A DNA stretch of 64,000 nucleotides, taken from positions 1,674,001-1,738,000 of the forward strand of contig NZ_CP029187.1 of assembly GCF_003097535.1 (NCBI RefSeq). The letters are read 5' to 3'. Position 1 is the stretch's first letter, and each line of letters starts with the position of its first letter. Below the pieces are notes generated by a model. That model did not search any database. It was not told the DNA's origin and worked only from the letters and a program-made list of their open reading frames with translations. This DNA is from Flavobacterium pallidum (lineage in GTDB: Bacteria; Bacteroidota; Bacteroidia; Flavobacteriales; Flavobacteriaceae). The position numbers and the translations under genes are program-made. Below, piece by piece: positions 3,865 to 59,730 of this stretch.

Positions 3865-3877
3865 CTCGTTAAGGCTG

Positions 3878-4065: not shown

Positions 4066-4071
4066 AAAATC

Positions 4072-4104: not shown

Positions 4105-4148
4105 GGAGTTTTGTTAATTCACTGCTTACTGTGAACCGCGACTGACTG

Positions 4149-23764: not shown

Positions 23765-23768
23765 TTTG

Positions 23769-42300: not shown

Positions 42301-45300
42301 CGTTTTATGATACCTATCCTGCTACAGGAACTACGACGACTACAGTAACAGCCGGTCAAACGTACAACCTTACAGTAAGTGCTGCTACCAGTATATTATC
42401 TGTATGGATTGACTGGAACAGGAATGGCGATTTAGAAGATTCTGAATGGCAACAAGTCTGGACGAGTGCTTCTTCAGGTACATTGCCTATTTTAGTTCCT
42501 TCCAATGCAGTTGGTGGTTACACGAAAATGAGACTTCGTAGTCGTGGAACCGGTAACACTAATGGTGCTTCAGATGATTGTACTGCCTTCTTTAGCGGTA
42601 CTTCACAAGACTATACGATTAATGTAATTGGAGCGGTTGAAAAAACAGGCCTGAATTATAGCTGGTCACCGGGTGGCGCTACAACTCAGAATGTTATCGT
42701 CAATCCAACTTCGACTACAACGTATACTGTAACGGCAACCAACCCACTTACAGGTTGTTCCAATACTGATAGTATATTAATTAATGTTAATCCTTCCCCG
42801 ATTGCTCCTACAGGTGTTGATTCTTCACAATGTGGAAATCAAATACCAACAGCTTCGGTATCGGATAATAATGCGTTTGCTACACCAACATTCAAATGGT
42901 ATGCTGATAACGTAACGACTACAACTTTACAAAGCAGTACTTCTACAACTTACACCACTGCCATCAATACTACAACAACATTCTATGTATCTGTAGTAAA
43001 TCCAGGCACTGGTTGTGAAAGTAGCAGGACTCCGGTTACAGTTACTGTAAGTACAGCTGATGCTATTATGGCATCTCCAAGTTCTTCGACTATTTGTCCT
43101 GGAACCAGTGTTTCTGTAAGTGTATCAAGTATAAACACTAATTATGTGTACACCTGGACCGCATTGCCTTCAACAGGTAGTGGTATTACAGGTTCACTTT
43201 CAGGAACAAGCAATAGTATTACACCAACTCTTCCTGGTACATATACTTATACAGTAAATGCTGTAGATGGACCATGTTCTACATTTACAACATTCACCAT
43301 TACAGCAAGCAATAATCCATTGCTGACTGTCGGCGCTTCACCTACGACTGTATGTAACGGTGGTATCAGTACACTTACTGCAAGCCATCCGGCTTATATT
43401 TTCTCTACATCTACAGGAGCTGCTTTAGATCCTATGGTAGGAGCTACGGATGCATTGACTACTGGTAATGATGACACTCCTAGTGATAACCCTACACCAA
43501 TAGGGTTTACATTCAACTTTGATGGTGTTAACTTTACAGATTTCTCTGTATCACCTGATGGATGGATTTTACTGGGTACAGATTTTGGTATTGATGAGTT
43601 CACAAACACAACTGTTGCTACTGATAATATTCCTAAATTATATCCTTTCTGGGATGATTTGGCTACAGGTACAAATGGAAGTGTGAAAACATTAGTTACC
43701 GGGTCAGCTCCAAACAGGATTTTCATCGTTGAATGGAATGTAACTGTGCCTAGAAATACAACAGGTGCTGTAAACTCTAAATTCCAGGCTTGGTTATACG
43801 AGACCAGCAATAAGATTGAATATCGCTATGGCGCTATGGGTACACCAACCAGCGGAAGCATTTCTGCAGGTTATACAGTAGATGCGACTCACTTCAGCAG
43901 CATTACTTTCAGCAATAATACTGAAAGCAAAACGACTGCAAATGACTCTAACAGTACTAAACCAGCAAGTGGAAGAATGTTCACTTATACTCCGGTTACA
44001 TCAACTGTTACCTGGTCTCCATTTACAGACCTATACACCGATGCTGGTGCAACGATTCCTTATGCAGGTCAGCAACTTGATGTAGTGTTCTCTAAGCCAG
44101 CCGCTACTACAGTTTATACGGCGACAGCTACTACGGCTGCAAGCTGTACAACTACTCAGAATGTTACGGTTACCAACAACTCAATCAATATTGCTGCTAT
44201 TACTGGCGGTGCTAATGATTATTGTATTGGTTCTCCTGCGCTTGATTTTGATACTGCAACGCCAGGCGTTACCTGGACTTCATCTAATCCTTCAGTTGCC
44301 ACTGTGAATTCTAGTGGGGTGATGACTGCTTTGACTGCAGGAACAACAATCATCAGCGCTACAATTACAAACGCTGGTTGTACTACTGTGGCTCCAAACC
44401 CACAGACAGTTGTAATCAACGACCAGGTACAGATTGTATCTTACACTGCTTCACAAACTGTTGTAACTAATGGAAATACTTCATTCACAGTTAATGCAAC
44501 AGGTACTGGTTTGACTTACCAATGGCAAGTTAACGAAGCGCCTGCATTTGCAGGTTTCGTAAACGTTGTTGATGGTGGTGTTTACAGCGGTGCTCAAACA
44601 AGCACGCTGAACCTTACTACAGTGCCGGATTCAATGAATGGAAACTTGTACCATGTAATTGTATCAGGTCAGGGCGTTTGTACTTCGAAAACTACTAATC
44701 CTGATTCACCATTGACTGTAGGTAGCACCGGTATCGGTTCTCACCCTGCTGATGTAATAATCTGTGAGACTACAACAGTAGCTTCATTCAGTGTTGTTGC
44801 AACTGGTGATGATACAGGTGGTTATCAATGGCAAGAGCAGGTAGGTGGAACGGGACCATGGTCTAATATCACTGATGGTGGTATATATTCGGGTGCTACT
44901 ACTCCTACTTTATCGCTTTCAGGTTTGACTTTGGCTCAAAGTACTAATAAGTACAGGGCTGTGGTTACAGGCGCTGTAACTTCGGCTACTTCAAATCCTG
45001 CTACACTTACAATCAACCAATCTGTTACTGTAACTGCAAACCCGGCTAACGCCAATGTTTGTTTCTCAGGTGGAGCTGCAAGTTTTACCTCAACAGCTAC
45101 AGGTTTGATTACTTCACGTCAGTGGCAGTATTCTACCAATGGTGTAAGCGGATGGGCTAGTGTTGTAAACGGAACTCCTACTGGTGCTACGTATACAGGT
45201 AATACTACAGGAACATTGAGCGTTACTACAACTGCTGCTACCCCTGCTACAGGCCACTATTACAGGTTGTTCTATGATGCTCCTCTTTGTACTGATGTTG

Positions 45301-48230
45301 CTTCATCAGCAGGACAAATGATCATCTTTACACCTAATGCTACATCTCCTGGAACACAGAATTTCTGTGCAGGTGTTGCTACTTCGGCTATTCCTATTAC
45401 AGGAACTGGTACGACTTACAACATCAGTGGTGGTGCAGCGATTGGTTTAGCTAATCAAACTGGCGTGACTTCAATCCCGTCATTTACTCCAATAGCCGGA
45501 ACAGCAACTATTACGTTGACTCCGATTGCAAGTGGTTGTACAGGTCCTAACACTACATTTACGATCAACGTGAATGGATTGCCAGGTACACCAACAACAG
45601 GACCATCTTCTCCTATTTGTGAGGGATCTCCTTTGAACCTTACTTCGTCAACGATTACTATTCCTGGATATACTATGAATGGTAACAGTGGTGTAAGTTT
45701 TATTAATATCGCTGCAACAGGTACATCTGTTCCTGGAGCACTTGATGATGATAGTGAGCACAATATCACAATCCCATCATTTGTTTTCAACGGTACTACA
45801 TTTACTACCGCGAGAGTAGGTATGAATGGTGCCATTGTACTAGGATCCACAACAGGAGAAGTTTCCTTCTCTAATGCTGCGCTTCCAAGTACGGCTCATT
45901 CTGCAGGTAACGTATTCCTGGCTCCTTTCTGGGATGACCTTGATATACAAAGTGCTCCTACTATTAAGACACAGACTGTTGGTAACAACTTCATTATCCA
46001 GTATACTTCAGCGGATCACAATGATGTAGGTTTGGCAGATGGTATTACTTTCCAGGTACAGTTGAACTTAACGTCAGGTGCTATTACGTATGTTTATCAG
46101 GATGTTAGTTTTGGAGCTGGAGCTACAGGTCAGAATGCTGGTGCATCTGCAACTATAGGTATCCAAATGAGCAGCTCAAGTGCTGTCCAGTTCTCTAACA
46201 ATACTGCTAGCCTTACAAATGGCCAAAGTATTACGTTCACTCCAAACAGTGCTTCTTACAGCTGGACTGGTCCTAACGGATTCAGCTCTAGCCAACAGAA
46301 TCCAACTGTTACTGCAACAGCATCAGCTGCAAATGCAGGAACATATACTTTAACAGTAACCAATGTGGCTACAGGTTGTCAAAAAGTTGTTACACAGAAT
46401 GTAACAGTTACTCCTGCTCCTGCCGGAGGAACACTTGGCAGCCAAACGGCTTGTTACAATTCTACTCCTGACGACATCCTGCTTTCAGGAAGTGTTGGAA
46501 GTGTAGTGAAATGGCAAAAAGCATCTGACATGGCTTTCACCAGCCCTCAGGATATTGCCAACACAACCACTACATTGACAGGTGCTCAGGTGGGTAACAT
46601 TACTACAACTACTTACGTAAGGGCTGTTGTCCAAAGCGGAAGCTGTGGAACTGTTAATTCTACTGTTGCTACAATCACTCCAGGAAACCAGACTACATGG
46701 ACTGTAGCTGGCGGATGGAGCAATGGAGCTCCTACTTCAACAAGTGCTGCTACCATCAACGGTAACTTCACCGCTGTAGCAGATCTTAACGCTTGTTCAT
46801 TGACGATCCAGAGCGGAACAGTTTCTGTTGCGTCAGGATTTGATTTCTACGTAAGCGGTAAAGTAACCGTAAGCGGAGGTACTGTTACCTTCGAAGATGG
46901 TTCAGACCTTGTACAAACACGTAATGATGCCAACACAGGTAACATCAAATACAAGAGGACGGCGAACCTGATCCGTCAGGATTATGTTTACTGGTCTTCC
47001 CCGGTATCAGGACAGTTGCTGCAACCGTTCTCACCGAACACGCTTAACACGCGTTTCTACAACCTTGACGAGCCAACGAACGCTTTTGTTCAGATCGCTT
47101 CGCCATCAACCACTTCGTTTGATGCTGCCAAAGGTTACATGATCCGTTCTGCGAACAACCACCCAACGACACTTACCCCATGGACAGGAACGTTCACCGG
47201 AGTGCCTCGCAACGGTGAGTACACGATCCCGGTAACGGTGAGCGGCCAGGGCTACAACATGATCGGTAACCCTTACCCGTCTACTGTTGATGCTGACCTT
47301 TTCCTTGCCGAGCCAGGAAACGCAGGTACGCTTTACTTCTGGACGCACATCAGCCAGGCTGCTGCTTCAGGAGCGAACTATGCTACCTACAACACTTTGG
47401 GAGGAACTGCTGCACAATCAGGAGGTACTGCGCCTACAGGCGCCATCCGCGGAGGACAAGGTTTCATCCTGCTGAAATCTTCAGCAAGTACGGCTAAGTT
47501 CACCAATGCGATGAGGACTGCTGAAGGTGGTGCTTTCTACAGAAGTGCACAGACGGCTGAGAAACACCGTATGTGGTTCAACCTGAACACACCGGCACAC
47601 GCGATGAACCAGATCCTTGTAGGTTACGCCGAAGGCGCTACGATGGGTGAGGATGTCGCTATGGACGGTAGGTCTATCGAAGGCGGTTCGTCGATCTCGA
47701 GTTTGATCGGTAATGACAATTATGTCATCCAGGCCCGTCCGCTTCCATTCGTGGATACCGACGTGGTGCCATTAGGCTTCAATGCTGCTACGGCCGGAAC
47801 TTACATCATCGAGCTGGATCACATGGACGGTTTGTTCTCAGGGGACCAGAATGTTTACCTTAAGGATAACCTTCTCGGGGTAACACACAACATCAAGCAG
47901 GGGGCTTACAGCTTCGCTTCAGCTGAAGGCTCATTTGCCAACAGGTTCGAAGTGGTGTACCAGTCTTCACCGCTTGGGGTTGACACGCCAACATTTGATG
48001 CGAACAGCGTAGTGGTTTACAAAGACCAGGGCATGCTTCACATCAATTCAGGTAAAGTCGTGATGTCAGGGGTTAAGATCTTCGACATCCGCGGCAGGCT
48101 GATTTATGAGCGTGGTGCGATCAATGCTTCAGAGGCCGTGTTGAACGACCTTAGGGCAGAGGAGCAGGTATTGCTTGTTCAGATCACTTCGGTTGACAAT
48201 GAGGTGGTGACCAGGAAGGTCGCTTACTAA
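36354..48230 (+). CDS. Giant T9SS-secreted adhesin-like protein, 3958 residues
   Basis: A long N-terminal extension precedes a signal peptide (membrane segment about residues 36-56, cleavage near AFAQ at 55-58). The body is threonine-, serine-, glycine- and asparagine-rich beta structure. Recognisable parts in order: three copies of a beta-sandwich module (about residues 1386-1599, 2346-2550 and 3100-3296; e.g. PIGFNFNFFGTNYSTINVGS and PIGFTFNFDGVNFTDFSVSP), a GEVED-like domain (about 1950-2096, LSVWIDWNRNGDLEDSEW), a Big_2-like segment (2618-2690, GVTWTSSNPSVATVNSSGVM), and Ig-like units with QWQ motifs (about 2696-2950). The last 433 residues (3526-3958) are shared identically with the protein at 48566 and end in a T9SS sorting signal that resembles type C (VKIFDIRGRLIYERG, VLLVQITSVDNEVVTRKV). 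Probably a surface adhesin or matrix protein; no catalytic motif was seen. Confidence 0.88.
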   Translation: MYKNYDSLRSGRDTWLKNDVGDSIGSPPTASTKKAFRYLMTAFAMLSFLFLGGAAFAQTTVISASGSGSFEGANFAADGWTLVQGTAAANNNFLTGNAGAVGFTPTHGTKGVFVTTNGTSRGYNTGAGSWIWMYRDVTLNAGETVASVTMDMFGNPGDTGFDGIVVGLTDQTFTASIATGATGTMSGTVVPGMTFATTATSNGFIEDGSYAVATNRTFTVSAVAMGNTLSSSAKRLWIGWRCDGSVGNPATPMSFDRVNFVTAAPANFTAVQSGLFSSPATWGGAVPAPGNNIVIPAGTTVTVDQALNYSSLTIDGTLQWGSSSNTVTLGGNVLIGSTGRLLAYTAATTPVGITLTIGGNYTNNGYANHAVGTGTLATLTFNGSGSTLGGTGTFAGDGTRGIIRQLFFQNNGSNTINTTQNLTTYSLGHTGAGNLNTNGKLMVDNTAQYYGLAENIQVANVAVTNMGSGYTSAPIPSCSGASLWTAAAALSVGNVRITASDIYVVSVAGTSGTTAPAHTSGAATATGGTAEFLWVGPAGTIGTPYTPAALTVGTQYFYGGNLYTAVATTAMGVAGAPVHTSGTVGSLRYVGTPAKVSASWDAITSTLRSLNLVTAGTGYASSTAPAITIIANAAGTGASASAVVLYTQNGPTSSLFQKSGGAATISGGLTINSDAGAGLLTGDVQASSGVATLSTTNGGNNYTVAPTVGFAGPTQLNLVTNAGTGFTSAPTITVTGGNLVTGTALTSSNFTITVDNGNVASVYLNTGTTATYSTPPTLSFTGGGGSGATLAFPSGSWPTATANIGTNGQLTSFTMTNSGYGYAAAPTVGVGTTTGTANGGTFTSVAAAPVARVALYNLTLNFFAPATSAIVNADDASIPTNRKINTLSLNGNGNGLNLASNLVLYGTTPLALVASGNTPGNILNMGGNTVTCTTNGFGGLAGTIGATNSFVKNGSFVLTGRGGGSTFNFPFGGTFTWFAGSGSNATGSNTLTVKVTDTAAPTNAVTGGTGLAMGTRAYRVQTATTLGAAATAGTNPTILMSFNGVDGLTTTQDQTFLSDGTSLTGPWTTRSTAFGASGALPATGTKTTATVAPGPIVITGDNYYAWSTPASTIVDFSPLTVCASSGTFTITGTNFTGVTAVSIGGTPVTSFTVVNATTITGVAGSGTTGFASVTKNGATISGVQTVTVTGSAAAPGVAPASANIIPGGAVSFTATGAGGTMKWYDAATGGTLLFTGNTYNANICTSRSIYVAEDNGSCEGARAAVPITVQPIVITPTVASFCGTGGTTTLNVTPTDPSITYTWTALTPTASFVSSNVGNSVDVNLTETSDFKVTATTALGGCSIDAFISVGVYPLPTATVTTTASGVCPGTSATINSGLSAGNFTSSSITFAPHTAPGTATTLVTGGAAVVPVSGGTSLPLDDVGWGGLPIGFNFNFFGTNYSTINVGSNGTVQFGALNLTNTTGLADFSFTTLPSASEPFNMVAILAMDNDLSTSGAFNGAIKYWTEGYAPNRKFIVSYENVREFGDTKISTAQGIFYETTGVIEVHVTSSTNVDRVKLVGVNNGNGTIGVLAYASGTSASASPQNPISTSFAFRFSPPSNYTTTWFANGVQFATGTNLFSQVVSPAVTTTYSITYTNQTTLCTNAPGSAQVVMSVLGNTAPTGVNTLSSSPSVCAGFTATLSTDYAGSTAGLTYQWQSSPAGMGTWSDVSGATADTMISSPINAPTDFRLGIASCGGTVGYTNPVTVNLTNSISSTSGATRCGVGTVSLTASGTPGASINWYAASSGGTAIFTGSPYTPSVSSTVTYYVAAETPGCTSPRVAVTATVNPAPALTLSSSSANLCVGQTSGTVTITSNVADYNSYIWNPSTGVSGSEITGWTFTPSTTTVYTLTATEPGGCTNQATFTANVDVLPVDATADFTTVCAGSPVSLSASTIVLSPGPAVLPTGYCSPDSSGGAGSNPITSVAFNTLSNTGIVQTTPFYDTYPATGTTTTTVTAGQTYNLTVSAATSILSVWIDWNRNGDLEDSEWQQVWTSASSGTLPILVPSNAVGGYTKMRLRSRGTGNTNGASDDCTAFFSGTSQDYTINVIGAVEKTGLNYSWSPGGATTQNVIVNPTSTTTYTVTATNPLTGCSNTDSILINVNPSPIAPTGVDSSQCGNQIPTASVSDNNAFATPTFKWYADNVTTTTLQSSTSTTYTTAINTTTTFYVSVVNPGTGCESSRTPVTVTVSTADAIMASPSSSTICPGTSVSVSVSSINTNYVYTWTALPSTGSGITGSLSGTSNSITPTLPGTYTYTVNAVDGPCSTFTTFTITASNNPLLTVGASPTTVCNGGISTLTASHPAYIFSTSTGAALDPMVGATDALTTGNDDTPSDNPTPIGFTFNFDGVNFTDFSVSPDGWILLGTDFGIDEFTNTTVATDNIPKLYPFWDDLATGTNGSVKTLVTGSAPNRIFIVEWNVTVPRNTTGAVNSKFQAWLYETSNKIEYRYGAMGTPTSGSISAGYTVDATHFSSITFSNNTESKTTANDSNSTKPASGRMFTYTPVTSTVTWSPFTDLYTDAGATIPYAGQQLDVVFSKPAATTVYTATATTAASCTTTQNVTVTNNSINIAAITGGANDYCIGSPALDFDTATPGVTWTSSNPSVATVNSSGVMTALTAGTTIISATITNAGCTTVAPNPQTVVINDQVQIVSYTASQTVVTNGNTSFTVNATGTGLTYQWQVNEAPAFAGFVNVVDGGVYSGAQTSTLNLTTVPDSMNGNLYHVIVSGQGVCTSKTTNPDSPLTVGSTGIGSHPADVIICETTTVASFSVVATGDDTGGYQWQEQVGGTGPWSNITDGGIYSGATTPTLSLSGLTLAQSTNKYRAVVTGAVTSATSNPATLTINQSVTVTANPANANVCFSGGAASFTSTATGLITSRQWQYSTNGVSGWASVVNGTPTGATYTGNTTGTLSVTTTAATPATGHYYRLFYDAPLCTDVASSAGQMIIFTPNATSPGTQNFCAGVATSAIPITGTGTTYNISGGAAIGLANQTGVTSIPSFTPIAGTATITLTPIASGCTGPNTTFTINVNGLPGTPTTGPSSPICEGSPLNLTSSTITIPGYTMNGNSGVSFINIAATGTSVPGALDDDSEHNITIPSFVFNGTTFTTARVGMNGAIVLGSTTGEVSFSNAALPSTAHSAGNVFLAPFWDDLDIQSAPTIKTQTVGNNFIIQYTSADHNDVGLADGITFQVQLNLTSGAITYVYQDVSFGAGATGQNAGASATIGIQMSSSSAVQFSNNTASLTNGQSITFTPNSASYSWTGPNGFSSSQQNPTVTATASAANAGTYTLTVTNVATGCQKVVTQNVTVTPAPAGGTLGSQTACYNSTPDDILLSGSVGSVVKWQKASDMAFTSPQDIANTTTTLTGAQVGNITTTTYVRAVVQSGSCGTVNSTVATITPGNQTTWTVAGGWSNGAPTSTSAATINGNFTAVADLNACSLTIQSGTVSVASGFDFYVSGKVTVSGGTVTFEDGSDLVQTRNDANTGNIKYKRTANLIRQDYVYWSSPVSGQLLQPFSPNTLNTRFYNLDEPTNAFVQIASPSTTSFDAAKGYMIRSANNHPTTLTPWTGTFTGVPRNGEYTIPVTVSGQGYNMIGNPYPSTVDADLFLAEPGNAGTLYFWTHISQAAASGANYATYNTLGGTAAQSGGTAPTGAIRGGQGFILLKSSASTAKFTNAMRTAEGGAFYRSAQTAEKHRMWFNLNTPAHAMNQILVGYAEGATMGEDVAMDGRSIEGGSSISSLIGNDNYVIQARPLPFVDTDVVPLGFNAATAGTYIIELDHMDGLFSGDQNVYLKDNLLGVTHNIKQGAYSFASAEGSFANRFEVVYQSSPLGVDTPTFDANSVVVYKDQGMLHINSGKVVMSGVKIFDIRGRLIYERGAINASEAVLNDLRAEEQVLLVQITSVDNEVVTRKVAY

Positions 48231-48291
48231 GTTTCACTGAAACATCAATAAAAGAAACCTCCTGAGCAATCAGGAGGTTTTTTGTTTTTGT
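46929..48291 (+). repeat. 1363-bp duplicated 3' end, copy 1 (partner 57437-58799)
   Basis: From the codon for A in ANTGNIKYKR through the stop codon and the terminator to the TTTTTGT tail, this segment matches 57437-58799 (offset 10508) with 12 base differences, all synonymous third-position changes between about 47205 and 47936. The last 355 bp, including the non-coding part, are identical. Similarity continues at lower level further upstream. Confidence 0.97.
48255..48286 (+). terminator. Terminator of the first giant gene
   Basis: An 11-bp perfect stem (AAACCTCCTGA with TCAGGAGGTTT) with a GCAA tetraloop and a T run follows 24 bp after the stop codon. An identical copy terminates the second giant gene at 58763. 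Confidence 0.93.
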
Positions 48292-48393
48292 TACTGATCA
48301 CAATTTCTTTTACGCAACCAAATCTAACTTGTTAATCTTCTCAAAACCAGTATTACAAATATTTCGTTAATACTTTAAGTGCATTTGGTCGAT

Positions 48394-48401
48394 TATATTT
48401 G
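48394..48401 (+). promoter_or_regulatory. Possible promoter -7 box of the second giant gene
   Basis: TATATTTG matches TAnnTTTG exactly. It lies 164 bp before the ATG at 48566, giving an unusually long AT-rich leader. The remainder of the 335-bp gap 48231-48565 contains the terminator of the first gene and nothing else recognised. Confidence 0.5.
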
Positions 48402-48565
48402 CATGTGTTGGTTGATAAATACTATTTTGTTAACACGAAAACGTTGTAGTTAAGTAAATATAACACGAATGTTAAATTATGTTAAAAAACATTATACATT
48501 TACATGCTTACGAATTGATGGATTTTTTTAATAATTCCCCTTATTAATTCAAATTAAATGACGTT

Positions 48566-51500
48566 ATGAAAAAAGAACTACAAAATTTAACAGAAAAAGC
48601 GGCGCATTTCTTAAGTGTCGCATTGATGATTGTCATGTTGGCGGGATTCAGTACCCCCTTATTTGCACAACCGGCCTCGATGTCCGTCAACCAGGACGTA
48701 AGTGGTACTTACACGAACACAACCATGACGCTTAAAGGTGGTGTGTTTCAGGCACGTTTCCAAGAAAACGGATCAGGGACTTCAGCCGGGACAAGAAACT
48801 GGCAATTCAACACCGACGGTTATTTTAATACCTGGGGTGTGAAATCTACCAACGGCGCTTCAACCGTAAATCTTTCCGCTTACAATACCACAATCCAGCC
48901 GAATGCCGCTACAGCATCGGGAAACTTTGAAGGCGGTCCAGGTTATAACAACAAAGGAAGGCTTCCGGCAACGCAGGCCAATTATTATTACACTTATAAC
49001 TTAATGAAGGGGTCATCTTATGCTGACCAACTCATGAGTGTATTGGAAACCAGCTACAACCCTGTAACACTTTCCTCAGTCGCGCAAAGCGGTGGGACGT
49101 TTGGGGGCAGGACGGTAACGATTACTACAAGCGGTACGCCGAATGCTTCGGAAAATATTTATGTAAGGTACTCGACCAACAATTTTTCGACTTCAGCATT
49201 GGTATTGGCAACAGGTTCAGGAACAACCTGGACAGCAACTATTCCATGGCAGTCTGCCGCGGTAAGTTTCTATGTGTATTCAAGTCCGAGAACTTTATCT
49301 GCAATTAATGCCGATGTAACTGCTAATGGACAACAGGTGCATGATACTTCAATGCTTAACCTAAACAATAATAGTGGTTCCAATTATTCCTGGACACCTG
49401 CAACAGGAGCCATCATTGTTTCGAGTACCGGTGGTACGGGATCAGCAGGAACAGGATATTCCACTTTTACGACAACGACAACCGGCGTATTTGCAGCATT
49501 GAACGGCGGTGCAGTGCATACCGGGACAGTAACGGTACTCATTACTGCTGATGTGACAACAGAGCCGGGATCTGTAGCTTTAAATAATTCAGCGGCATGG
49601 ACTGCCATGACGGTTAATCCCAGTGGTGCGAGAACTGTCAGCGGAACTTTAGTCGGCGCGCCACTCTTTGATTTTAACGGTGCGGATAATGTTACGGTAA
49701 ATGGCTTGAATTCGGGTGGGAATTCACTTACAATATCCAACCTCAGTACGTCTTCAACTTCGGGAACATCGACGATACGTTTCCAGGCAGATGCTACAAG
49801 CAACACCATTACCAACTGTTCCGTACTTGGATCATCGACTATGCCAGTGGGTACAAATGGAGGAAATATCTGGTTTGGCTCGGGAGCAACGACTACAGGT
49901 AATGATACCAACACGATTTCGAGTTGTAACATCGGCCCGGCGGGAGGTAATCTTCCATCTAAAGGAATTTACTTCTCAGGTACGACCACAACTACGACAT
50001 TAAACAATAGCGGAAATACGATCACAAGCAACAATATCTTCGATATTTTCAATGGAGGTGTGGAAAGTGCTGGAATTTATTCGACAACGGGTGCGACAGC
50101 CAACATTTTTACGAACAATAAGTTTTACCAGACTGCTACAAGAACGTTTACAACAACAGTGCTTCACAGTGCGATTAAAGTGACCAATACCACGAGTGCT
50201 GCAGGGTTTACCATAACAGGCAACACCATCGGATTTGCAAGTAATACCGGAACAGGTGTTTACACGCTAACCGGCTCTACAGGAAGGTTCGCAGGAATTG
50301 TATTCAACGGATTAAACGGTGGTACTGTATCGAACATTGACAGCAATACCATAGCCGGAATAAGCATGACCGGAGTGACTTCCAGTGGGACGACCACTTC
50401 AAGTCCGTTTACAGGGATTTTGATTAATGAAGGTGTTACGACATGTAATACCAATATAATTGGCAGCCAATCGACAACCGGCTCAATCGTGTTTTCAACC
50501 AATACAACTACAGGAACTGATATTTACGGAATATTGAATTTTGGAAGCAATTTATGGACTTCAAACAGCAACCAGATTGGTAGTATGACCATTACAAATG
50601 CTGGGGCAAGTGGTGCTTTCATTGTTTACGGAATAAGATGCTGGACTGGTTCAGGTGTTACGTGGATAGCCAGTTCAAACCTTGTCGGGGGGACTGTGGC
50701 CAATTCGATTCAAAACAATTGTACGTCCACTACCGCACAGTTAATCGGAATGAATGGCAATGCACCAGCTTCAACACTGACCAACAATACCGTCCGTAAT
50801 TTGGTTGCAACGGGAGGAACGGGTACAAGTACTACCGCTTCGGTTATTGGGATCTCTTCAACCGGAACAAGTGCGTCGCATACTTTAACTTCAAACACTA
50901 TTTATACATTATCAAATACAAATACAACTGCAGCTTCTAACGTGGCTGGTATTCTTTTTGGCGGTTCGACAGCCAACACTGTTGAAAGGAACTTTATGTA
51001 TGATCTTACTGCGACGACCAATAGCGCTTCTGCTGAAATCAGTGGAATCAAGGTGTCAGCAGGAACGACTACTTTTAAGAACAACATGATTGCTATCGGA
51101 GCAGGTGTATCCAACGCAATACAGATTAATGGTATCAGCGAACCGTCATCCACCGGGACGGATAATTTTTATAACAACAGTGTGTACATTGGAGGGACAG
51201 TTACTGCAGGAACGGCGAATTCATTTGCGTTTAACAGTACACAGACCACTGTCACAAGGGCATTCAGGAATAACATCTTTGTAAACGCAAGGAGCAACAG
51301 TGGCGCTACAGGTAAGAACTACATCGTAAGGGTTGGAGGCACTACTGTAAATCCGGGTGGGCTTACCATTAATAACAATATTTATTACGGAACGGGAACC
51401 GGTAGTGTTTTTGGATTTTTCAACTCGTTGGATGTGGCGAACCTCGGTGCGTGGCAGACCGCAGTGGGGCAGGACGCAGCAAGTCTTTATGGCGATCCAA

Positions 51501-54500
51501 AATATATAAGCCCCGCAGGCGGTGCGCCGGATTTACATATCAGTGCTGTATTGGTGACGCCCGCTGAAGGAACTGGTGCTGCCATTGCAGGGGTAACCGA
51601 TGATTATGACGGACAGACCCGTTCAGGCTTAACGCCGACTGATATCGGTGCCGATGCAGGAAACTTTACAACCGGGGATTTCACTGCGCCGACAATTTCC
51701 TATACGACACTGACCAATACGACTTCAACGGCCAACAGGACTTTAGCTACAGTAACCATCGCCGATGCCGTGGGTGTTCCTACTGCGGGTGCCTTACAGC
51801 CAAGGATTTATTTCCGTAAAAATGCCGGAACATGGTTCTCAACACAAGGCACACTGATGACCGGTACAGGAACCAGCGGTACGTGGGATTTCATCATCGA
51901 CAATTCGCTGATGGGTGGTGTAGCTATTTCAGATGTGATACAATATTATGTCATTGCCCAGGATGCAGCAGCTAATATTACAACCAATCCATCAGGAGGC
52001 GCTGCCAGTGATGTGAACACGGTTACATCGGCTCCGACTGCAAATTCATACCTCATTGTTTCCACACCTTTGAGCGGAACGTATACTGTAGGCTCAGGCG
52101 GAAGTTTTGCTACAATCACTGCTGCGGTTGCGCAATTCAATGCAGCAGGCGTGAGCGGACCAGTGGTATTTTCGCTAACCGATGCTTCTTATGGCAGTGA
52201 GACTTTTCCAATTACCATTGGTGCTCCTGCTGGTGTAAGTGCAGTAAATACTTTAACAATCCGTCCGGCTACAGGCGTCAATGTTGCCATTACAGGAAGC
52301 AGTGCTACGGCATTGTTTACAATGAATGGTGCAGATTATGTTATCATCGACGGGTCGAACAATCCGGTAACCAATACGATTTGTCCTGCGGTAACATCAA
52401 GCAGGAACCTGACACTGACCAATACCAATACCGGTACGACAAGTGCAGTAGTCTGGCTTCAGACCAATGCTGCGGATGGTGCTACAAATAATATCGTTCG
52501 CAATGCCAACATTCTTGGTAGTGGCAATACGCAAACGCTGTTTGGAATTGGATCGGGCAGCAGCACAATCAGCACCACTTCTTTAGGAACAGGAAACAAC
52601 AATAACACGATTGAGAATAACAATATCTCAAAAACACAATACGGTATTTATTCAGCTGGAGCAAGTGCTGCAAGCAAAAACAGCGGCACGGTGATTAACC
52701 AAAACCTGATCAATACGGCTTCTCCGGATAACGTTTTGAAAACAGGGATTACGGCAGCTTTTGAGAATAACCTTACCATTTCCGGAAATAATGTGGCCAA
52801 TATGAATTTTACAAGTGGCGATACTGCAGGAATTAGTGTGGGATATGTAATTGCATCTGCTTTTTCGACCACAAGCTTCGGGACACAGGAAGCCTCAAAT
52901 GTGACTATTGCCAATAACGTTGTCAATAACGTTGTCAATACAGGTGCGTTTTCGGCAGTTGCGATTGCAGTAGGGCAATCAGCAACAGGAACTACAAATA
53001 TCAATAATAATGCTGTGTTGGCCATTAATTCTAATGGTACCAGTGGTGATTTCGGCGCGGGTATCTTCATTAACAGTGCTGCGGGATCTACATTGAATGT
53101 GTATTTTAACTCAGTATACATGTCGGGAGGAACAACTGCGTCAGTGGTTACGGCAGGAGGAAATTATGCCATGGCTATTGGAGGAAGCGGAGCAGGTACA
53201 GCGACGAATGTCAGGAATAATATTTTTGAGAACACAACAACAACCAATATGAATGGTTATACTGTGGGTATTGCCTATTCCACCTTTACAGGGCTTACTT
53301 TAGGAAACAATAACTATTTCAAGCCTGCAACAGGAAATTTCATTTATGGAAGGACCGGAGGTTTGAATAGCGGAACGAATGTTACTACGGTGCCAATTAT
53401 TGCAGGGGAGACGGGATCGATTACTACAGATCCGCTTTACAACAGTACTACTAATTTAGTGCTACAGATAGGTTCTCCGGCCGTAGGTGCAGGAGCATCA
53501 GGTTTGGGGATCACAACGGATATTGTTTGCGCTGCAAGAGCTGGTTCACCTTCATTGGGTGCTTATGAAACACCCTCTGATTTAAGTGGACCAACCATAA
53601 ATTACACCCCATTGGCATCAGCCTGTACTGGCGGGGCCAGAACCCTTACCGCAACTATCAGTGATCCAAGCAATGTAGGTACGGGTGCCGGTTTGCCGGT
53701 GGCTTACTATAAGATTAATAATGGTACATATACTGCGGCAACAGGAACATTTGTTTCGGGGAATACTTATAATTTTTCTATCGGTACCGGAAGTGTTTCA
53801 GGCGATGTTGTGTCTTATTATATAGTGGCACAGGATCAGAATGGTACGATAAATGTGAGTGCTTTCCCGGCGGCGGGCGCAACAGGATTTACAGCCAATC
53901 CGCCAGCAGCTTCAACACCACCGACTACGCCGAGCAGCTATACTGTAAATTATACGCTTAACGGAACCTACACTGTAGGAACAGGCGGCACCTTTGTTAC
54001 TTTGACAGCGGCAGTTGCTGCTTATAACGGCGGGTGCAGTATTACAGGGCCGGTGGTATTCAGCCTGACTGACGCTACTTATGCTTCGGAAACTTATCCG
54101 ATAACAATCAATTCAAACGCTGGTGCCAATGCTACAAATACACTGACGATTAAGCCGACACAAGCCAATACAGTCTTTACGGGAACAAGTTCCTCAGCAT
54201 TGGTTGTCATCAACGGTGCTGATTATGTTACGATTGACGGATCAACTTCGGCAACTGCAAATACGGTTTGCCCGGCTTCTGCGGCAAGCAGGAATATTAC
54301 TTTTACAAATAACAGTACAAGTACAACAAGTGCCGTAATCTGGCTGCAGACTGCAACCGGTGATGGTGCGACAAACAATACCGTGAAAAACTGTAACCTG
54401 ACTGGCAGCGGAAATACACAAACATTGTTTGGTGTCGGATCAGGATCGTCAAGCATCAGTGCTTCATCGAGTGGAACAGGAAATAACTCCAATAGTTTTG

Positions 54501-57500
54501 TAAATAATAACATCAGCAAAACTAAAAATGGAATCTATTCTAAAGGCTTAAGTGCTGCCAATAAAAATACCGGAACGATCATCAACCAAAACGTTATTAC
54601 TGCTGCTTCACCAAATAACATAGCGACAGCGGGTATCCTGGTGGGTTTCGAAAACGGCATTACAGTGTCGGGAAATAATATCGGCAACGTCCAGAGCCCG
54701 GACGATGATGCGTTTGGTATCGCTTTGGGTGGAACAGCAATTTCAACGACAACGTTTACCGGTAATGAAGTGATTAACGCAACAGTGACCAACAATACGA
54801 TAGGCATTATCAGGGGAGCCGATACCTTCTCTTCTATCGGTGTGTATATTCCTACTACGACCAATACAGGAACTACACTGATCGCTAATAATATGATTAG
54901 CGGTGCCAATTCAAATGGTACCAGCCCGGATCTGGGTGCCGGTATTTTCCTTGGAAATGTTGTTGGGACAGTGAATGTATTTTACAACACCATTACCGTG
55001 ACCGGCTCTGTTTGGACGAGTACTGCAACATGGCCATCACTTGGATTGGCTTCGACAAGCGCTGCAACTGTGCTTAACATCAGGAACAACATTTTTACGT
55101 CAACCGGATCAACAGGTGCCAACCTGAACAGGGCGATGGGATTTGCATACAATACATTTACAAACCTGACTTCCGATAATAACGACTTATTTGCCAATGG
55201 CACCGGTGCTGCTGTTGTGCAGACAGTAACATTGACCAATGCCGGAGCAACTTCCTATACTAATTTAAGCGGTGCCGGAAGCTGGAATGCTTTTAGTGGT
55301 AAAGACGGGAATTCAGTGAGTTATCTTCCGACATTTACTTCTGCAACCGACCTGCATATTAATAATACCGTGGCTGCGAACAGTACGAGTTTGAACGCAA
55401 AAGCGGCTGTGGTTTCAGTAACTACAGATTTTGATTGTGCAACACGCGATGCGGCTACACCGGATATCGGTGCAGATGAATTTGTAGGCTGTACGGTACC
55501 TACTTCTTTCAGCTATACAACGAGTACTGTTGTGGCTTGTACCAATAATGCCATTGCGGCCAATAATCCGTCATTTACGGGAAGTGCAGCAACGTCTTAT
55601 TCCATACTTCCTGCATTGCCATCAGGATTGTCCCTCAATACCAGTACAGGTGTAATTTCGGGAACACCGACGGTAGCTGCCGCTGCTGCAAATTATACGA
55701 TTACGGTAAACAACACCTGCGGAAGTACTACTGCCGTGGTCAACCTCACTGTAAACAGTCCTGTCGATTATGCGAATTTACAGTATCCTGCTACAGGCCA
55801 TATTTGCACTTCGGGTAATTTTGATGCTTATGGACAAGTGTATAAGTCAGGTGTAACCGAAGCTGCGGGACAAGGCGCAGGTATTATTGCCGAACTGGGT
55901 TACAGCACTTCAAATACAGATCCTGCAACATGGACGAATTGGATTGCGGCGACTTTCAATACGCAGTCAGGCAATAATGATGAGTATATAGCCAACCTTT
56001 CAGGATTATCTTCAGGAACTTACTATTATACTTTCCGTTATCATACTAATTCTTGCAATTACCAATACGGCGGTTACAGTGCAGGAGGCGGAAACTTCTG
56101 GGATGGAGTGACTTATGTCAGCGGTGTGCTGACGGTCGATCCGGCATCAGTCGGAGGTGCTGTAACGGGCGGCACAGCAATATGCCAGGGATCTACTAGC
56201 GGTTTATTGACTTTGGGGACGCATACGGGCACTATCGTAAGATGGGAAAGTTCCGTAAGTCCTTTTACGACATGGACACCGATCGCAAATACTGCCAGCA
56301 CCTATACTTCAGGTACGCTTACGCAGACCACTGAATTCAGGGCTGTGGTCCAAAGCGGACTTTGCTCTGAAGCAAATTCCACACCTACCACCGTAACGGT
56401 TGATCCCGCATCAGTTGGCGGAAGCGTAGCAGGCGGCACGACCATCTGCTCCGGCTCAACCAGCGGATTATTGACGTTGTCAGGAAACACTGGCACTATC
56501 GTAAGATGGGAAAGCTCAGTTTCTCCATTTACAACCTGGAGCCCGATTGCTAATATTGCGAGTACTTACACTTCAGGTACGCTTACACAAACCACCCAAT
56601 TCAGGGCTGTGGTTCAAAGCGGCGCTTGCGCAGAAGCAAATTCGACGTCAACTACCGTAACGGTTGATCCTGCATCTAATGGAGGGACTGTCTTAGGCGG
56701 TACAACAATCTGCTCAGGCTCAACCAGTGGATTATTGACGTTGTCAGGTGAAACCGGAACAATCGTAAGATGGGAAAGCTCGGTTTCTCCGTTTACAACA
56801 TGGAGCCCGATTGCAAATATTACCAATACTTACACTTCAGGTGCACTTACCCAGACTACCCAATTCAGGGCTGTGGTACAGAACGGTGCTTGCGGCGAGG
56901 CTAACGCTGCAGCGGCTACCGTAACTGTTTCGCCTGCTTCTGTCGGCGGTACGGTAAGCGGCGGTTCAACTACATGTAATGGTTCAAGCAGCGTATTGAC
57001 ATTGTCAGGTCACACGGGTGCTGTAGTAAGATGGGAAAGTTCAGTTTCCCCATTCACGACGTGGAGCCCGATTGCCCATACGGGCACGACATATATGACA
57101 GGGCCAATTACTGTAGAGACGCATTTCCGTGCGGTTGTACAAAGCGGTCCATGTGCTTCGGCCACTTCTTCTGAAACAATTGTTACGGTAGGAGGTAATA
57201 CAACAACATGGAGTGCAGGAGCATGGAGCAATGGTACGCCTAACTCTCTAAGCGCTGCAATCATCAACGGTAACTTCACCGCTGTAGCCGATCTTAACGC
57301 CTGTACACTGACGATCCAGAGCGGAACCGTAACGGTTTCAGGTGGTTTTGATTTCTACGTAAACGGTAAAGTGACCGTCAGCGGCGGAAGCCTTACTTTC
57401 GAGGACGGTTCTGACCTGGTGCAGTCGCAGGACATCGCCAACACAGGTAACATCAAATACAAGAGGACGGCGAACCTGATCCGTCAGGATTATGTTTACT

Positions 57501-58738
57501 GGTCTTCCCCGGTATCAGGACAGTTGCTGCAACCGTTCTCACCGAACACGCTTAACACGCGTTTCTACAACCTTGACGAGCCAACGAACGCTTTTGTTCA
57601 GATCGCTTCGCCATCAACCACTTCGTTTGATGCTGCCAAAGGTTACATGATCCGTTCTGCGAACAACCACCCAACGACACTTACCCCATGGACAGGAACG
57701 TTCACCGGAGTGCCCCGCAACGGTGAGTACACGATCCCGGTAACGGTGAGTGGCCAGGGCTACAACATGATCGGTAACCCTTACCCGTCTACTGTTGATG
57801 CTGACCTTTTCCTTGCCGAGCCAGGAAACGCAGGTACGCTTTACTTCTGGACGCACATCAGCCAGGCTGCCGCTTCAGGAGCGAACTATGCTACCTACAA
57901 CACTTTGGGAGGAACTGCTGCACAATCAGGAGGTACTGCGCCTACAGGCGCCATCCGCGGAGGACAAGGTTTCATCCTGCTGAAATCTTCAGCAAGTACG
58001 GCTAAGTTCACCAATGCGATGAGGACTGCTGAAGGTGGTGCTTTCTACAGAAGTGCACAGACGGCTGAGAAACACCGTATGTGGTTCAACCTGAACACAC
58101 CGGCACACGCGATGAACCAGATCCTTGTAGGTTACGCCGAAGGCGCTACGATGGGTGAGGATGTCGCTATGGACGGTAGGTCTATCGAAGGCGGTTCATC
58201 GATTTCGAGTTTGATCGGTAATGACAATTATGTCATCCAGGCCCGTCCGCTTCCATTCGTGGATACCGACGTGGTGCCATTAGGCTTCAATGCCGCTACG
58301 GCCGGAACTTACATCATCGAGCTGGATCACATGGACGGCTTGTTCTCAGGGGACCAGAATGTTTACCTTAAGGATAACCTCCTTGGGGTGACGCACAACA
58401 TCAAGCAGGGGGCTTACAGCTTCGCTTCAGCTGAAGGCTCATTCGCCAACAGGTTCGAAGTGGTGTACCAGTCTTCACCGCTTGGGGTTGACACGCCAAC
58501 ATTTGATGCGAACAGCGTAGTGGTTTACAAAGACCAGGGCATGCTTCACATCAATTCAGGTAAAGTCGTGATGTCAGGGGTTAAGATCTTCGACATCCGC
58601 GGCAGGCTGATTTATGAGCGTGGTGCGATCAATGCTTCAGAGGCCGTGTTGAACGACCTTAGGGCAGAGGAGCAGGTATTGCTTGTTCAGATCACTTCGG
58701 TTGACAATGAGGTGGTGACCAGGAAGGTCGCTTACTAA
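48566..58738 (+). CDS. Giant T9SS-secreted adhesin-like protein, 3390 residues
   Basis: The signal peptide lies at residues 14-34 (cleavage near LFAQ). The body is built of right-handed parallel beta-helix stretches (about residues 330-1030, then two related modules at about 1169-1672 and 1795-2309, both opening with GTYTVG(S/T)GG(S/T)F and holding GADYV(I/T)IDGS), with interspersed Ig-like pieces (about 1050-1160, 1680-1790 and 2312-2397). Four tandem 88-residue repeats follow at 2525-2876 (RWESSVSPFTTW each time). The C-terminal 433 residues (2958-3390) are identical to those of the protein at 36354 and carry the type C-like T9SS sorting signal. An extracellular structural or adhesive role is likely; beta-helices could also bind or cut polysaccharide, but no catalytic residues were identified. 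Confidence 0.88.
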   Translation: MKKELQNLTEKAAHFLSVALMIVMLAGFSTPLFAQPASMSVNQDVSGTYTNTTMTLKGGVFQARFQENGSGTSAGTRNWQFNTDGYFNTWGVKSTNGASTVNLSAYNTTIQPNAATASGNFEGGPGYNNKGRLPATQANYYYTYNLMKGSSYADQLMSVLETSYNPVTLSSVAQSGGTFGGRTVTITTSGTPNASENIYVRYSTNNFSTSALVLATGSGTTWTATIPWQSAAVSFYVYSSPRTLSAINADVTANGQQVHDTSMLNLNNNSGSNYSWTPATGAIIVSSTGGTGSAGTGYSTFTTTTTGVFAALNGGAVHTGTVTVLITADVTTEPGSVALNNSAAWTAMTVNPSGARTVSGTLVGAPLFDFNGADNVTVNGLNSGGNSLTISNLSTSSTSGTSTIRFQADATSNTITNCSVLGSSTMPVGTNGGNIWFGSGATTTGNDTNTISSCNIGPAGGNLPSKGIYFSGTTTTTTLNNSGNTITSNNIFDIFNGGVESAGIYSTTGATANIFTNNKFYQTATRTFTTTVLHSAIKVTNTTSAAGFTITGNTIGFASNTGTGVYTLTGSTGRFAGIVFNGLNGGTVSNIDSNTIAGISMTGVTSSGTTTSSPFTGILINEGVTTCNTNIIGSQSTTGSIVFSTNTTTGTDIYGILNFGSNLWTSNSNQIGSMTITNAGASGAFIVYGIRCWTGSGVTWIASSNLVGGTVANSIQNNCTSTTAQLIGMNGNAPASTLTNNTVRNLVATGGTGTSTTASVIGISSTGTSASHTLTSNTIYTLSNTNTTAASNVAGILFGGSTANTVERNFMYDLTATTNSASAEISGIKVSAGTTTFKNNMIAIGAGVSNAIQINGISEPSSTGTDNFYNNSVYIGGTVTAGTANSFAFNSTQTTVTRAFRNNIFVNARSNSGATGKNYIVRVGGTTVNPGGLTINNNIYYGTGTGSVFGFFNSLDVANLGAWQTAVGQDAASLYGDPKYISPAGGAPDLHISAVLVTPAEGTGAAIAGVTDDYDGQTRSGLTPTDIGADAGNFTTGDFTAPTISYTTLTNTTSTANRTLATVTIADAVGVPTAGALQPRIYFRKNAGTWFSTQGTLMTGTGTSGTWDFIIDNSLMGGVAISDVIQYYVIAQDAAANITTNPSGGAASDVNTVTSAPTANSYLIVSTPLSGTYTVGSGGSFATITAAVAQFNAAGVSGPVVFSLTDASYGSETFPITIGAPAGVSAVNTLTIRPATGVNVAITGSSATALFTMNGADYVIIDGSNNPVTNTICPAVTSSRNLTLTNTNTGTTSAVVWLQTNAADGATNNIVRNANILGSGNTQTLFGIGSGSSTISTTSLGTGNNNNTIENNNISKTQYGIYSAGASAASKNSGTVINQNLINTASPDNVLKTGITAAFENNLTISGNNVANMNFTSGDTAGISVGYVIASAFSTTSFGTQEASNVTIANNVVNNVVNTGAFSAVAIAVGQSATGTTNINNNAVLAINSNGTSGDFGAGIFINSAAGSTLNVYFNSVYMSGGTTASVVTAGGNYAMAIGGSGAGTATNVRNNIFENTTTTNMNGYTVGIAYSTFTGLTLGNNNYFKPATGNFIYGRTGGLNSGTNVTTVPIIAGETGSITTDPLYNSTTNLVLQIGSPAVGAGASGLGITTDIVCAARAGSPSLGAYETPSDLSGPTINYTPLASACTGGARTLTATISDPSNVGTGAGLPVAYYKINNGTYTAATGTFVSGNTYNFSIGTGSVSGDVVSYYIVAQDQNGTINVSAFPAAGATGFTANPPAASTPPTTPSSYTVNYTLNGTYTVGTGGTFVTLTAAVAAYNGGCSITGPVVFSLTDATYASETYPITINSNAGANATNTLTIKPTQANTVFTGTSSSALVVINGADYVTIDGSTSATANTVCPASAASRNITFTNNSTSTTSAVIWLQTATGDGATNNTVKNCNLTGSGNTQTLFGVGSGSSSISASSSGTGNNSNSFVNNNISKTKNGIYSKGLSAANKNTGTIINQNVITAASPNNIATAGILVGFENGITVSGNNIGNVQSPDDDAFGIALGGTAISTTTFTGNEVINATVTNNTIGIIRGADTFSSIGVYIPTTTNTGTTLIANNMISGANSNGTSPDLGAGIFLGNVVGTVNVFYNTITVTGSVWTSTATWPSLGLASTSAATVLNIRNNIFTSTGSTGANLNRAMGFAYNTFTNLTSDNNDLFANGTGAAVVQTVTLTNAGATSYTNLSGAGSWNAFSGKDGNSVSYLPTFTSATDLHINNTVAANSTSLNAKAAVVSVTTDFDCATRDAATPDIGADEFVGCTVPTSFSYTTSTVVACTNNAIAANNPSFTGSAATSYSILPALPSGLSLNTSTGVISGTPTVAAAAANYTITVNNTCGSTTAVVNLTVNSPVDYANLQYPATGHICTSGNFDAYGQVYKSGVTEAAGQGAGIIAELGYSTSNTDPATWTNWIAATFNTQSGNNDEYIANLSGLSSGTYYYTFRYHTNSCNYQYGGYSAGGGNFWDGVTYVSGVLTVDPASVGGAVTGGTAICQGSTSGLLTLGTHTGTIVRWESSVSPFTTWTPIANTASTYTSGTLTQTTEFRAVVQSGLCSEANSTPTTVTVDPASVGGSVAGGTTICSGSTSGLLTLSGNTGTIVRWESSVSPFTTWSPIANIASTYTSGTLTQTTQFRAVVQSGACAEANSTSTTVTVDPASNGGTVLGGTTICSGSTSGLLTLSGETGTIVRWESSVSPFTTWSPIANITNTYTSGALTQTTQFRAVVQNGACGEANAAAATVTVSPASVGGTVSGGSTTCNGSSSVLTLSGHTGAVVRWESSVSPFTTWSPIAHTGTTYMTGPITVETHFRAVVQSGPCASATSSETIVTVGGNTTTWSAGAWSNGTPNSLSAAIINGNFTAVADLNACTLTIQSGTVTVSGGFDFYVNGKVTVSGGSLTFEDGSDLVQSQDIANTGNIKYKRTANLIRQDYVYWSSPVSGQLLQPFSPNTLNTRFYNLDEPTNAFVQIASPSTTSFDAAKGYMIRSANNHPTTLTPWTGTFTGVPRNGEYTIPVTVSGQGYNMIGNPYPSTVDADLFLAEPGNAGTLYFWTHISQAAASGANYATYNTLGGTAAQSGGTAPTGAIRGGQGFILLKSSASTAKFTNAMRTAEGGAFYRSAQTAEKHRMWFNLNTPAHAMNQILVGYAEGATMGEDVAMDGRSIEGGSSISSLIGNDNYVIQARPLPFVDTDVVPLGFNAATAGTYIIELDHMDGLFSGDQNVYLKDNLLGVTHNIKQGAYSFASAEGSFANRFEVVYQSSPLGVDTPTFDANSVVVYKDQGMLHINSGKVVMSGVKIFDIRGRLIYERGAINASEAVLNDLRAEEQVLLVQITSVDNEVVTRKVAY
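52071..55490 (+). repeat. Two related beta-helix modules inside the second giant gene
   Basis: Encoded modules from about 52071-53580 and 53950-55490 align along their length: both open with GTYTVG(S/T)GG(S/T)F, contain GPVVFSLTDA, NGADYV and GSGNTQTLFG(I/V)GSGSS, then NNNISKT and INQN(L/V)I. Each is about 500 residues. The order of blocks is the same in both, indicating an internal duplication that has since diverged. Confidence 0.85.
56138..57193 (+). repeat. Four tandem 88-codon repeats in the second giant gene
   Basis: Units start at 56138, 56402, 56666 and 56930, spaced exactly 264 bp. Each encodes a variant of PASVGG...GLLTLSG...IVRWESSVSPFTTWSPIA...FRAVVQSG. The fourth unit has diverged and shortened ends. 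The high DNA similarity between units 2 and 3 suggests recent expansion. Confidence 0.93.
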
Positions 58739-58799
58739 GTTTCACTGAAACATCAATAAAAGAAACCTCCTGAGCAATCAGGAGGTTTTTTGTTTTTGT
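57437..58799 (+). repeat. 1363-bp duplicated 3' end, copy 2 (partner 46929-48291)
   Basis: Second copy of the C-terminal module and terminator, 99.1% identical to copy 1. The differences are 12 synonymous changes. The boundary is sharp at the left end: upstream of 57437 the two genes share only moderate similarity (NGNFTAVADLNAC region). Confidence 0.97.
58763..58794 (+). terminator. Terminator of the second giant gene
   Basis: Exact copy of the terminator at 48255-48286: an 11-bp stem, GCAA loop, T run. It separates the giant gene from the export cluster. Confidence 0.93.
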
Positions 58800-58866: not shown

Positions 58867-59730
58867 ATGGATCAAAAAAAGAGTGAAGACTGGCTTTTTG
58901 AAATAACACCTAAAAACAAATTCTTCAGCCTGCACTTAAAAGAAGTCTGGCAGTACAGGGATCTTTTGATGCTTTTTGTCAAGCGGGATATCATTACACT
59001 TTACAAGCAAACTATCTTAGGCCCGCTTTGGTATTTGATACAACCGCTCTTTACATCTGTAATTTTTACCATCATCTTTAATAATGTTGCAGGTATAGAT
59101 ACGGGCACAATACCCCCGTTTCTGTTTAACCTGACGAGTATTACCGCATGGAATTATTTTTCAGCATGCCTTACTTCAACTTCAGATACTTTTAAGGCAA
59201 ATGCAGGACTTTTCGGCAAAGTATATTTTCCCAGGATCATCATGCCGTTATCCATAGTAATTTCTAACCTTTTGAAATTCGGACTGCAACTGGCCATTTT
59301 GATTTCTTTCTACATCTATTATATCTTTATGGGATTTGATATTTGCCCAAACAAAACCATTGTATTTTTCCCGGTATTGATAATTTTAATGGGCGTCCTT
59401 GGTTTGGGATTTGGCATGATGATTTCGTCAATGGTTACTAAATACAGGGATCTCACGTTTCTCGTTACATTCGGAGTACAATTATTAATGTATGTTTCGG
59501 CTGTAAACTATCCGATAGCACTTATAAGAAACAAAATGCCTGCTTTTTCATGGATTGTAGAGTGGAATCCCATGGCATTTATTATCGAGACGACAAGATA
59601 TATGGTGTTGGATACGGGTAGTTTTTCATCGTCAGGATTTATTTATACGATTGCTTTTACTACAATAATATTCATTTTAGGCGTATTTATTTTCAACAGG
59701 GCTGAAAAAAGTTTTATCGACACTGTCTGA
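58867..59730 (+). CDS. wzm: ABC-type polysaccharide export permease (Wzm-like)
   Basis: Inner-membrane permease of the ABC-2 type, 287 residues. The short cytosolic start ends with HLKEVWQYRDLLMLFVKRDIITLYKQTILGPLWYLIQPL, the typical amphipathic entry helix of Wzm/KpsM-type transporters, followed by six membrane segments (e.g. LFTSVIFTIIFNNV, LAILISFYIYYIFM, FPVLIILMGVLGLGFGMMISSMV, TIAFTTIIFILGVFIFN). It exports lipid-linked polysaccharide such as O-antigen. Its ATPase partner is the Wzt-like gene four genes downstream, at the window edge. Confidence 0.92.
   Translation: MDQKKSEDWLFEITPKNKFFSLHLKEVWQYRDLLMLFVKRDIITLYKQTILGPLWYLIQPLFTSVIFTIIFNNVAGIDTGTIPPFLFNLTSITAWNYFSACLTSTSDTFKANAGLFGKVYFPRIIMPLSIVISNLLKFGLQLAILISFYIYYIFMGFDICPNKTIVFFPVLIILMGVLGLGFGMMISSMVTKYRDLTFLVTFGVQLLMYVSAVNYPIALIRNKMPAFSWIVEWNPMAFIIETTRYMVLDTGSFSSSGFIYTIAFTTIIFILGVFIFNRAEKSFIDTV

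Follow-up and report, generated by a model that had tools for sequence, protein, structure and literature searches.

The window analysed here is a 64,000-nucleotide stretch of the Flavobacterium pallidum genome, positions 1674001-1738000 on a single contig of 3,552,756 bp (NZ_CP029187.1). It contains two genes for giant proteins, A and B, which share their 3' segment, composed of a module that encodes most of the C-terminal region (tail) and of the terminator. A third copy of this segment ends a distant gene, C. Comparisons within and between species indicate that the 3' ends of A, B and C very probably evolve in concert by ectopic gene conversion.

The A and B copies of the segment (Table 1) were aligned without gaps at an offset of 10508 and differed at 12 of 1363 positions. 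All 12 differences are third-position, synonymous changes, and the final 433 residues of both proteins are identical. These values had been reported in an earlier reading of the window (the original prediction) and were reproduced on recomputation. Of the two mismatch-free ends given there, the right one was again 355 bp long, and the left one measured 278 bp instead of about 276 bp. Homology between A and B starts further left, at 46692/57203, and runs at ~74% identity (178/240) up to a sharp step at 46928/46929, which lies inside homologous sequence (100% to ~74% leftward). Outside the last ~630 residues, protein comparison of A and B yielded only two short matches (E = 1e-9 and 5e-4); the bodies are otherwise nearly unrelated, as had been predicted. 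Downstream of the stop codon, 61/61 nucleotides are shared by A and B, and 57/57 in C. Terminator folding was computed on the B copy, and the A and C copies were assigned by sequence sameness. When the window was compared with itself using 28-base words, a 6-bp array at 23768-23966 was the sole match besides the A/B tract. Synonymous changes were expected to make up ~26% of random changes, with transitions weighted twofold. The chance of 12 synonymous changes out of 12 is then ~1e-7, which points to selection having acted on the tail protein after the copies had become similar.

Two copies had been predicted. The A/B pair stands, but a genome search for further copies, as originally proposed, identified a third at the end of gene C (5439 amino acids; G000:C1:290119-291477, minus strand), ~1.43 Mb from A and B. 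The module of C is 98.6-98.8% identical to the A and B copies. Pairwise, the three modules differ by 12 to 18 mismatches per 1296 positions, and an assembler that copied a single sequence to three places therefore does not explain them. Codon differences (synonymous/other) were 12/0 for A-B, 14/1 for A-C and 17/1 for B-C. At least 16 full-length modules are present in the genome, counted in the stretches around the listed matches. Among these 16, identity is 98.6-99.1% for the three pairs formed by A, B and C, at most 67.3% for any other pair, and 56% at the median. B and C share a longer stretch of 2.6 kb at 95% identity, with 72-80% in the first 300 columns and 95-100% in the last ~1.9 kb. 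Just left of the step where A departs, B and C are identical at 330/330 nucleotides.

The C-terminal ~535 residues are homologous throughout to RemZ and RemA (profile E = 6.6e-184 and 7.6e-171; single-sequence E = 1.9e-87 and 3.3e-73, respectively). On this homology, the segment was assigned as the RemA/RemZ-family C-terminal region, consisting of a type IX secretion domain and a conserved domain of ~350 residues. RemA is a mobile gliding adhesin on the cell surface. Residues 2347-2562 of A, within its body, resemble RemA 24-242. The sorting-domain fold was found at the C-terminus of the tail. Model NF033708 for the type C sorting signal of the type IX secretion system (T9SS), for which the accessible part of PMC10202324 was used as source, matched 37 of 37 aligned members at E 0.001. 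Seven of the 37 matched the type A model TIGR04183 too, and Pfam Por_Secre_tail matched one. RemZ is classed as a Type A substrate in the accessible part of PMC10994853, in contrast to the type C assignment by NCBIfam for the tail described here. The window copy of the conserved 353-residue domain was without Pfam match, and Foldseek gave no solved counterpart for its model; relatives of the domain are numerous in Flavobacterium. L028, whose extended frame contains a stop codon, was excluded from structure alignments. The original view of the shared segment as a common secretion cassette on different bodies is strongly supported by the RemA/RemZ-type homology and the sorting-signal matches; the anchoring role proposed with it is putative. 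A, B and C are presumably secreted and located at the surface.

For comparison between species, the 3,464,207-bp genome of F. magnum was used, in which the positions and opposite strands of A and C are comparable. A and its orthologue A' are 85% alike end to end (3971 columns), and C and C' are 77-97% alike per 150-residue block from residue ~1200 to 4500. The tails of A' and C' match one another at 99.7% across 1296 nucleotides (1864 bp at 99.0% including the terminator) but are 88% identical to those of A, B and C. Tail identity is thus 98.6-99.7% within genomes versus 88% between genomes. Of the codon differences between the A and A' tails, 106 are synonymous and 31 are not. Past the stop codon, the non-coding stretch occurs in one version in A' and C' and in another in A, B and C. 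The tail of the third F. magnum gene, B', is 74% identical to those of A' and C' and is followed by a different terminator hairpin. A maximum-likelihood tree was calculated from 15 modules of a 45-row set, in which rows were kept if they spanned the query from ≤12 to ≥425. It grouped A, B and C (99/100) as well as A' and C' (100/99). The approximately unbiased test rejected the orthologue clades A/A' (p = 3e-49) and C/C' (p = 1e-54), and likewise a clade of B and B' (p = 1e-4). Species-specific tail sets together with rejected orthologue clades are best read as concerted evolution.

Exchange was also traced to the left of the module. Units with the motif WESSVSPF, which belong to an array of immunoglobulin (Ig)-like repeats, were counted four times each in B and C, three times in B', and not at all in A, A', C' and gene D of the relative described below. 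The 3' end of C runs into the four WESSVSPF units like B, whereas C' runs on like A' (327/330 nucleotides left of the step). The departures of C and C' from their common course lie at the same Ig boundary. In the farthest-left 90 columns before the step, B and C are B'-type (72/90 to B', 46/90 to A'); right of the step, their module groups with A' and C' in the tree. On this alignment the 3' end of C is chimeric, and exchange extends beyond the tail into the Ig-like repeats. Separately, the N-terminal ~1200 residues of C are only ~30-50% alike between C and its F. magnum orthologue, whose N-terminus resembles B' (54%). This reads as a putative replacement of the N-terminal part.

The second relative, Flavobacterium sp. 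BFFFF1, is a metagenome-assembled genome. It has one full tail of A/B/C type, that of gene D. Three other contigs begin or end inside a tail and match the 3' end of D at 98-100% over 153-234 bp, and a fourth contig end matches the tail start at 99% over 117 bp. These partial modules fell outside the 45-row set, so the cut-off BFFFF1 copies are absent from the tree. Past the terminator the contigs differ, leading to a LytTR gene with A'' (the A orthologue), to the C locus on its Ku-LigD side, or to a gene for 324 amino acids near purK. The left-hand contig ends lie in the body of A'', in that of C'' and in a further body adjoining rpoC; from the latter body, no open frame runs into the tail in the assembly. 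Judged by sequence, the three species carry three different homogenised tail sets, the BFFFF1 set being taken from contig ends. The outcome was thus not the same pair with independently diverged ends in every relative and no other copy: F. pallidum has a further copy, and the relatives have different homogenised sets. The genes for Ku and LigD (end-joining repair; L039:217-3593, G000:C1) are located ~2.6 kb past the 3' end of C in F. pallidum, in convergent orientation and with small open reading frames (ORFs) in between; the sequence next to the C locus of both BFFFF1 and F. magnum matches this region.

Nine other genomes of the genus were surveyed with 39 modules, a subset taken from the matches listed (the G029 module lay outside the comparison). 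Three of the nine contained a module pair 83-94% alike over >1.1 kb. The bodies of such pairs had no detectable match in G012 and G015 and were 54% alike over 279 columns just before the tail in G030.

Gene order was compared between the boundary genes of the locus. It is Porin_10-LytTR-A-B-ABC2 in F. pallidum, Porin_10-B'-A'-ABC2 in F. magnum and Porin_10-D-ABC2 in BFFFF1. B' and D are orthologues, with bodies 84% alike across 2144 alignment columns. The body of B is the reciprocal best match of both, yet only 51-55% alike. B, B' and D as plain orthologues with flipped order relative to A were considered and rejected on these values (51-55% for B against 84% for B'-D). From the body alignments, B is likelier a paralogue of B'/D than a very diverged orthologue that moved. 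Tail-bearing genes were also found after rpoC in BFFFF1 and, with 3359 amino acids, after rpoB and an rpoC-like gene in G001. In F. pallidum and F. magnum, rpoC and the 324-amino-acid gene are adjacent, with no tail-bearing gene between them. This gene belongs to the AP_endonuc_2 family. The comparison of the interval between it and rpoC drew on L177:7293-7849, L178:3882-4260, L179:101-2985 and L092:1-234. BFFFF1 contig C34 (L094, G060:C34; 11.6 kb) carries LytTR together with the A orthologue; its start lies within a tail and its end immediately before one. Its end segment is 97% shared with C''. C34 may be either a collapsed repeat or an excised unit.

Table 1. Features of the A/B locus (positions in the window).
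Feature	Position	Strand	Remarks
Porin_10 gene	33262..35211	+	Left boundary of the locus, likewise in F. magnum and BFFFF1
LytTR response regulator	35280..36008	+	345 bp before A; homologue directly before A'' in BFFFF1
Gene A	36354..48230	+	Giant protein of 3958 amino acids; G8, Ig_7, GEVED and Big_2 domains
Left transition of A	46692..46928	+	~74% to B; A-type, 200/240 to F. magnum A'
Homogenised tract, A copy	46929..48291	+	Module and terminator
Conserved 353-residue domain before the sorting domain	46932..47990	+	Confident AlphaFold2 model (predicted template modelling score 0.88); by sequence, equivalent to this part of RemA/RemZ
T9SS type C sorting signal (NF033708) of A	48069..48224	+	Full protein 38.0 bits, 512-residue C-terminus 40.9 bits (curated cut-off 40 bits)
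Intrinsic terminator hairpin of A	48252..48283	+	Same sequence as in B and C
Gene B	48566..58738	+	Giant protein of 3390 amino acids
Array of 264-bp Ig-like units in B	56162..57199	+	4 units by motif WESSVSPF; resembles RemZ 120-418
Left transition of B	57200..57436	+	240/240 to gene C; 178/240 to A
Homogenised tract, B copy	57437..58799	+	12/1363 positions unlike A copy; also in gene C
T9SS type C sorting signal (NF033708) of B	58577..58732	+	Full protein 36.6 bits (same cut-off)
Intrinsic terminator hairpin of B	58760..58791	+	62-nucleotide region, -24 kcal/mol, z -5.7
ABC2_membrane gene	58867..59730	+	Right boundary of the locus, likewise in F. magnum and BFFFF1

Elsewhere in the window, the 6-bp array at 23768-23966 consists of 33 copies of GCAGTC/GCGGTC (98% matches) between the ORFs 22487-23764 and 24013-24417, and is a possible variable-number repeat. 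A 21-bp unit is repeated ~8 times at 31006-31170, downstream of an S46 peptidase gene (28757-30901).

In the proposed mechanism, copies within one genome would repeatedly overwrite one another's 3' ends (approximately the last 1.4 kb) via ectopic gene conversion. The converted part would comprise the ~350-residue domain, the sorting domain and the terminator, and the promoters and most of each body would remain in place. On the right, the tracts end with the terminator, beyond which there is no homology. On the left, they end at varying points and may reach the Ig-like repeats; a gene would then gain the repeats of another gene plus its tail. Selection on the tail protein afterwards would keep changes mostly synonymous. 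The event itself is presumably conversion without crossover and RecA-dependent, and its presumable benefit is that the tail stays matched to one export machine.

Several points weigh against gene conversion or limit its reconstruction. The data comprise one genome per species, and the events were deduced from comparison between species. The 22 variable tract sites, polarised with F. magnum, were shared-derived for A and B (5), A and C (3) or B and C (2), confined to a single copy (8), unclear (3) or three-way (1); they give no order of conversions because parallel synonymous changes are to be expected at this distance. The BFFFF1 copies other than D are cut off, its homogenised set is built on contig ends of 117-234 bp, and the best pair among its 14 full modules is 62% identical. 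For B, the 240 columns that adjoin the step on its left fit a B'-type and an A'-type origin about equally (171 versus 175). Finally, B may have arrived already with its present tail instead of having been converted in place, because even the nearest bodies to its own in F. magnum and BFFFF1 are no more than 54-55% alike.

A bolder reading, possible but unlikely, is that the RemA/RemZ tail serves as a homology handle, with which a whole giant gene (promoter, body and tail) would be deleted, inserted or re-tailed exactly by homologous recombination. The location of B after A between two tails, with B' and D before A or beside the porin, was counted for it, as were the rpoC-side tail genes, one in BFFFF1 and another in G001, that are absent in F. 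pallidum and F. magnum, contig C34 bounded by tails, and the exchanged repeat array of C. Gain or loss of whole units via the tail would explain the differences in gene content. If this were true, Flavobacterium would shuffle surface proteins and repeat arrays via one shared 3' sequence, somewhat like gene cassettes sharing one site.

The original prediction had further proposed that the tail could act as a recombination site through which bodies are exchanged, a phase- or antigenic-variation device. This is not supported and very unlikely. In its favour, the identical 1.36-kb repeats are direct between A and B and inverted in C, F. pallidum and F. magnum differ in the first 1200 residues of C, and BFFFF1 has, besides C34 with its tail at the start and its end just before one, a contig C24 that reads D-tail-ABC2. 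However, with crossover in a 3'-terminal repeat every body keeps its own promoter and start, and no new body would be expressed. Crossover between A and B, in direct orientation, would delete gene B, and crossover of A or B with C would invert ~1.43 Mb. No joined gene was found among 120 listed of 354 matches (1933 candidates), where only three own and three F. magnum proteins exceeded 75% and D of BFFFF1 was not listed. The eight flanking proteins, to which the scan was confined, included no recombinase. Contig C24 does resemble the 10.5-kb deletion form that had been anticipated in relatives, but the pattern of C34 and C24 is equally expected from repeat collapse in assembly.

The original alternatives for the shared segment were gene conversion and very recent duplication. 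The comparison of species speaks for conversion. Recent duplication of a whole gene, followed by fast divergence of the body, is extremely improbable, even though synonymous-only A/B differences would indicate little time since a common origin and adjacent tail-bearing genes are common in the genus among the matches listed. In F. magnum, A and C each have an orthologue and the two bodies are unrelated, so A and C were separate genes before their tails became alike; moreover, the A and B bodies share almost nothing, and the identity step at 46928/46929 is sharp and lies within homologous sequence. Strong selection on the tail protein without any conversion would account for the synonymous A/B changes (12/12) but is hardly credible, since synonymous sites and the post-stop stretch are near-identical within a genome and different between species, A and A' differ at 106 synonymous beside 31 other codons, and no pair involving the other 13 tails examined exceeds 67.3%.

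Concerted evolution by gene conversion would provide the type IX secretion and gliding-adhesin field with a clear case, comprising three species, chimeric 3' ends and, for comparison, a non-homogenised F. magnum B'. It also suggests how a tail matched to one export machine could be retained on many unrelated giant bodies. In practice, these tails are places where short-read Flavobacterium assemblies can be broken or wrongly joined. Both the rate of surface-gene conversion and its RecA dependence become directly testable. No report of concerted evolution of T9SS or RemA-type tails was found in the literature searched, with most subscription journals outside reach.

The proteins A, B and C have 2.4 to 4.9 times the length of the deposited chains of F. 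johnsoniae RemA and RemZ (8gl6, 8gl8; accessible part of PMC10994853). Their bodies are unlike those of RemA and RemZ, and a role in gliding or binding is putative for them. In F. psychrophilum, according to the accessible part of PMC5808330, inverted repeats of 10 kb, which contain an adhesin gene and a PorP/SprF gene, lie on either side of a 1.9 Mb inversion. Both cases involve repeated T9SS-related adhesin sequences in inverted orientation on one Flavobacterium chromosome. As described there, F. psychrophilum repeats a three-gene region of 10 kb and the inversion was seen, whereas F. pallidum shares the 3' end only. The closest parallel is provided by the 3' segments of babA/babB and homA/homB of Helicobacter pylori, for which the accessible parts of PMC3960876 and PMC2795765 describe concerted evolution by intragenomic gene conversion. 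There too, the genes are surface-protein paralogues; their 5' part (in bab also the middle) goes with the locus from strain to strain, whereas 3' segments resemble each other more when they come from one strain. Unlike bab and hom, the Flavobacterium case appears to involve at least three dispersed loci, a type IX tail with its terminator, separate sets in three species, and repeats that are carried along.

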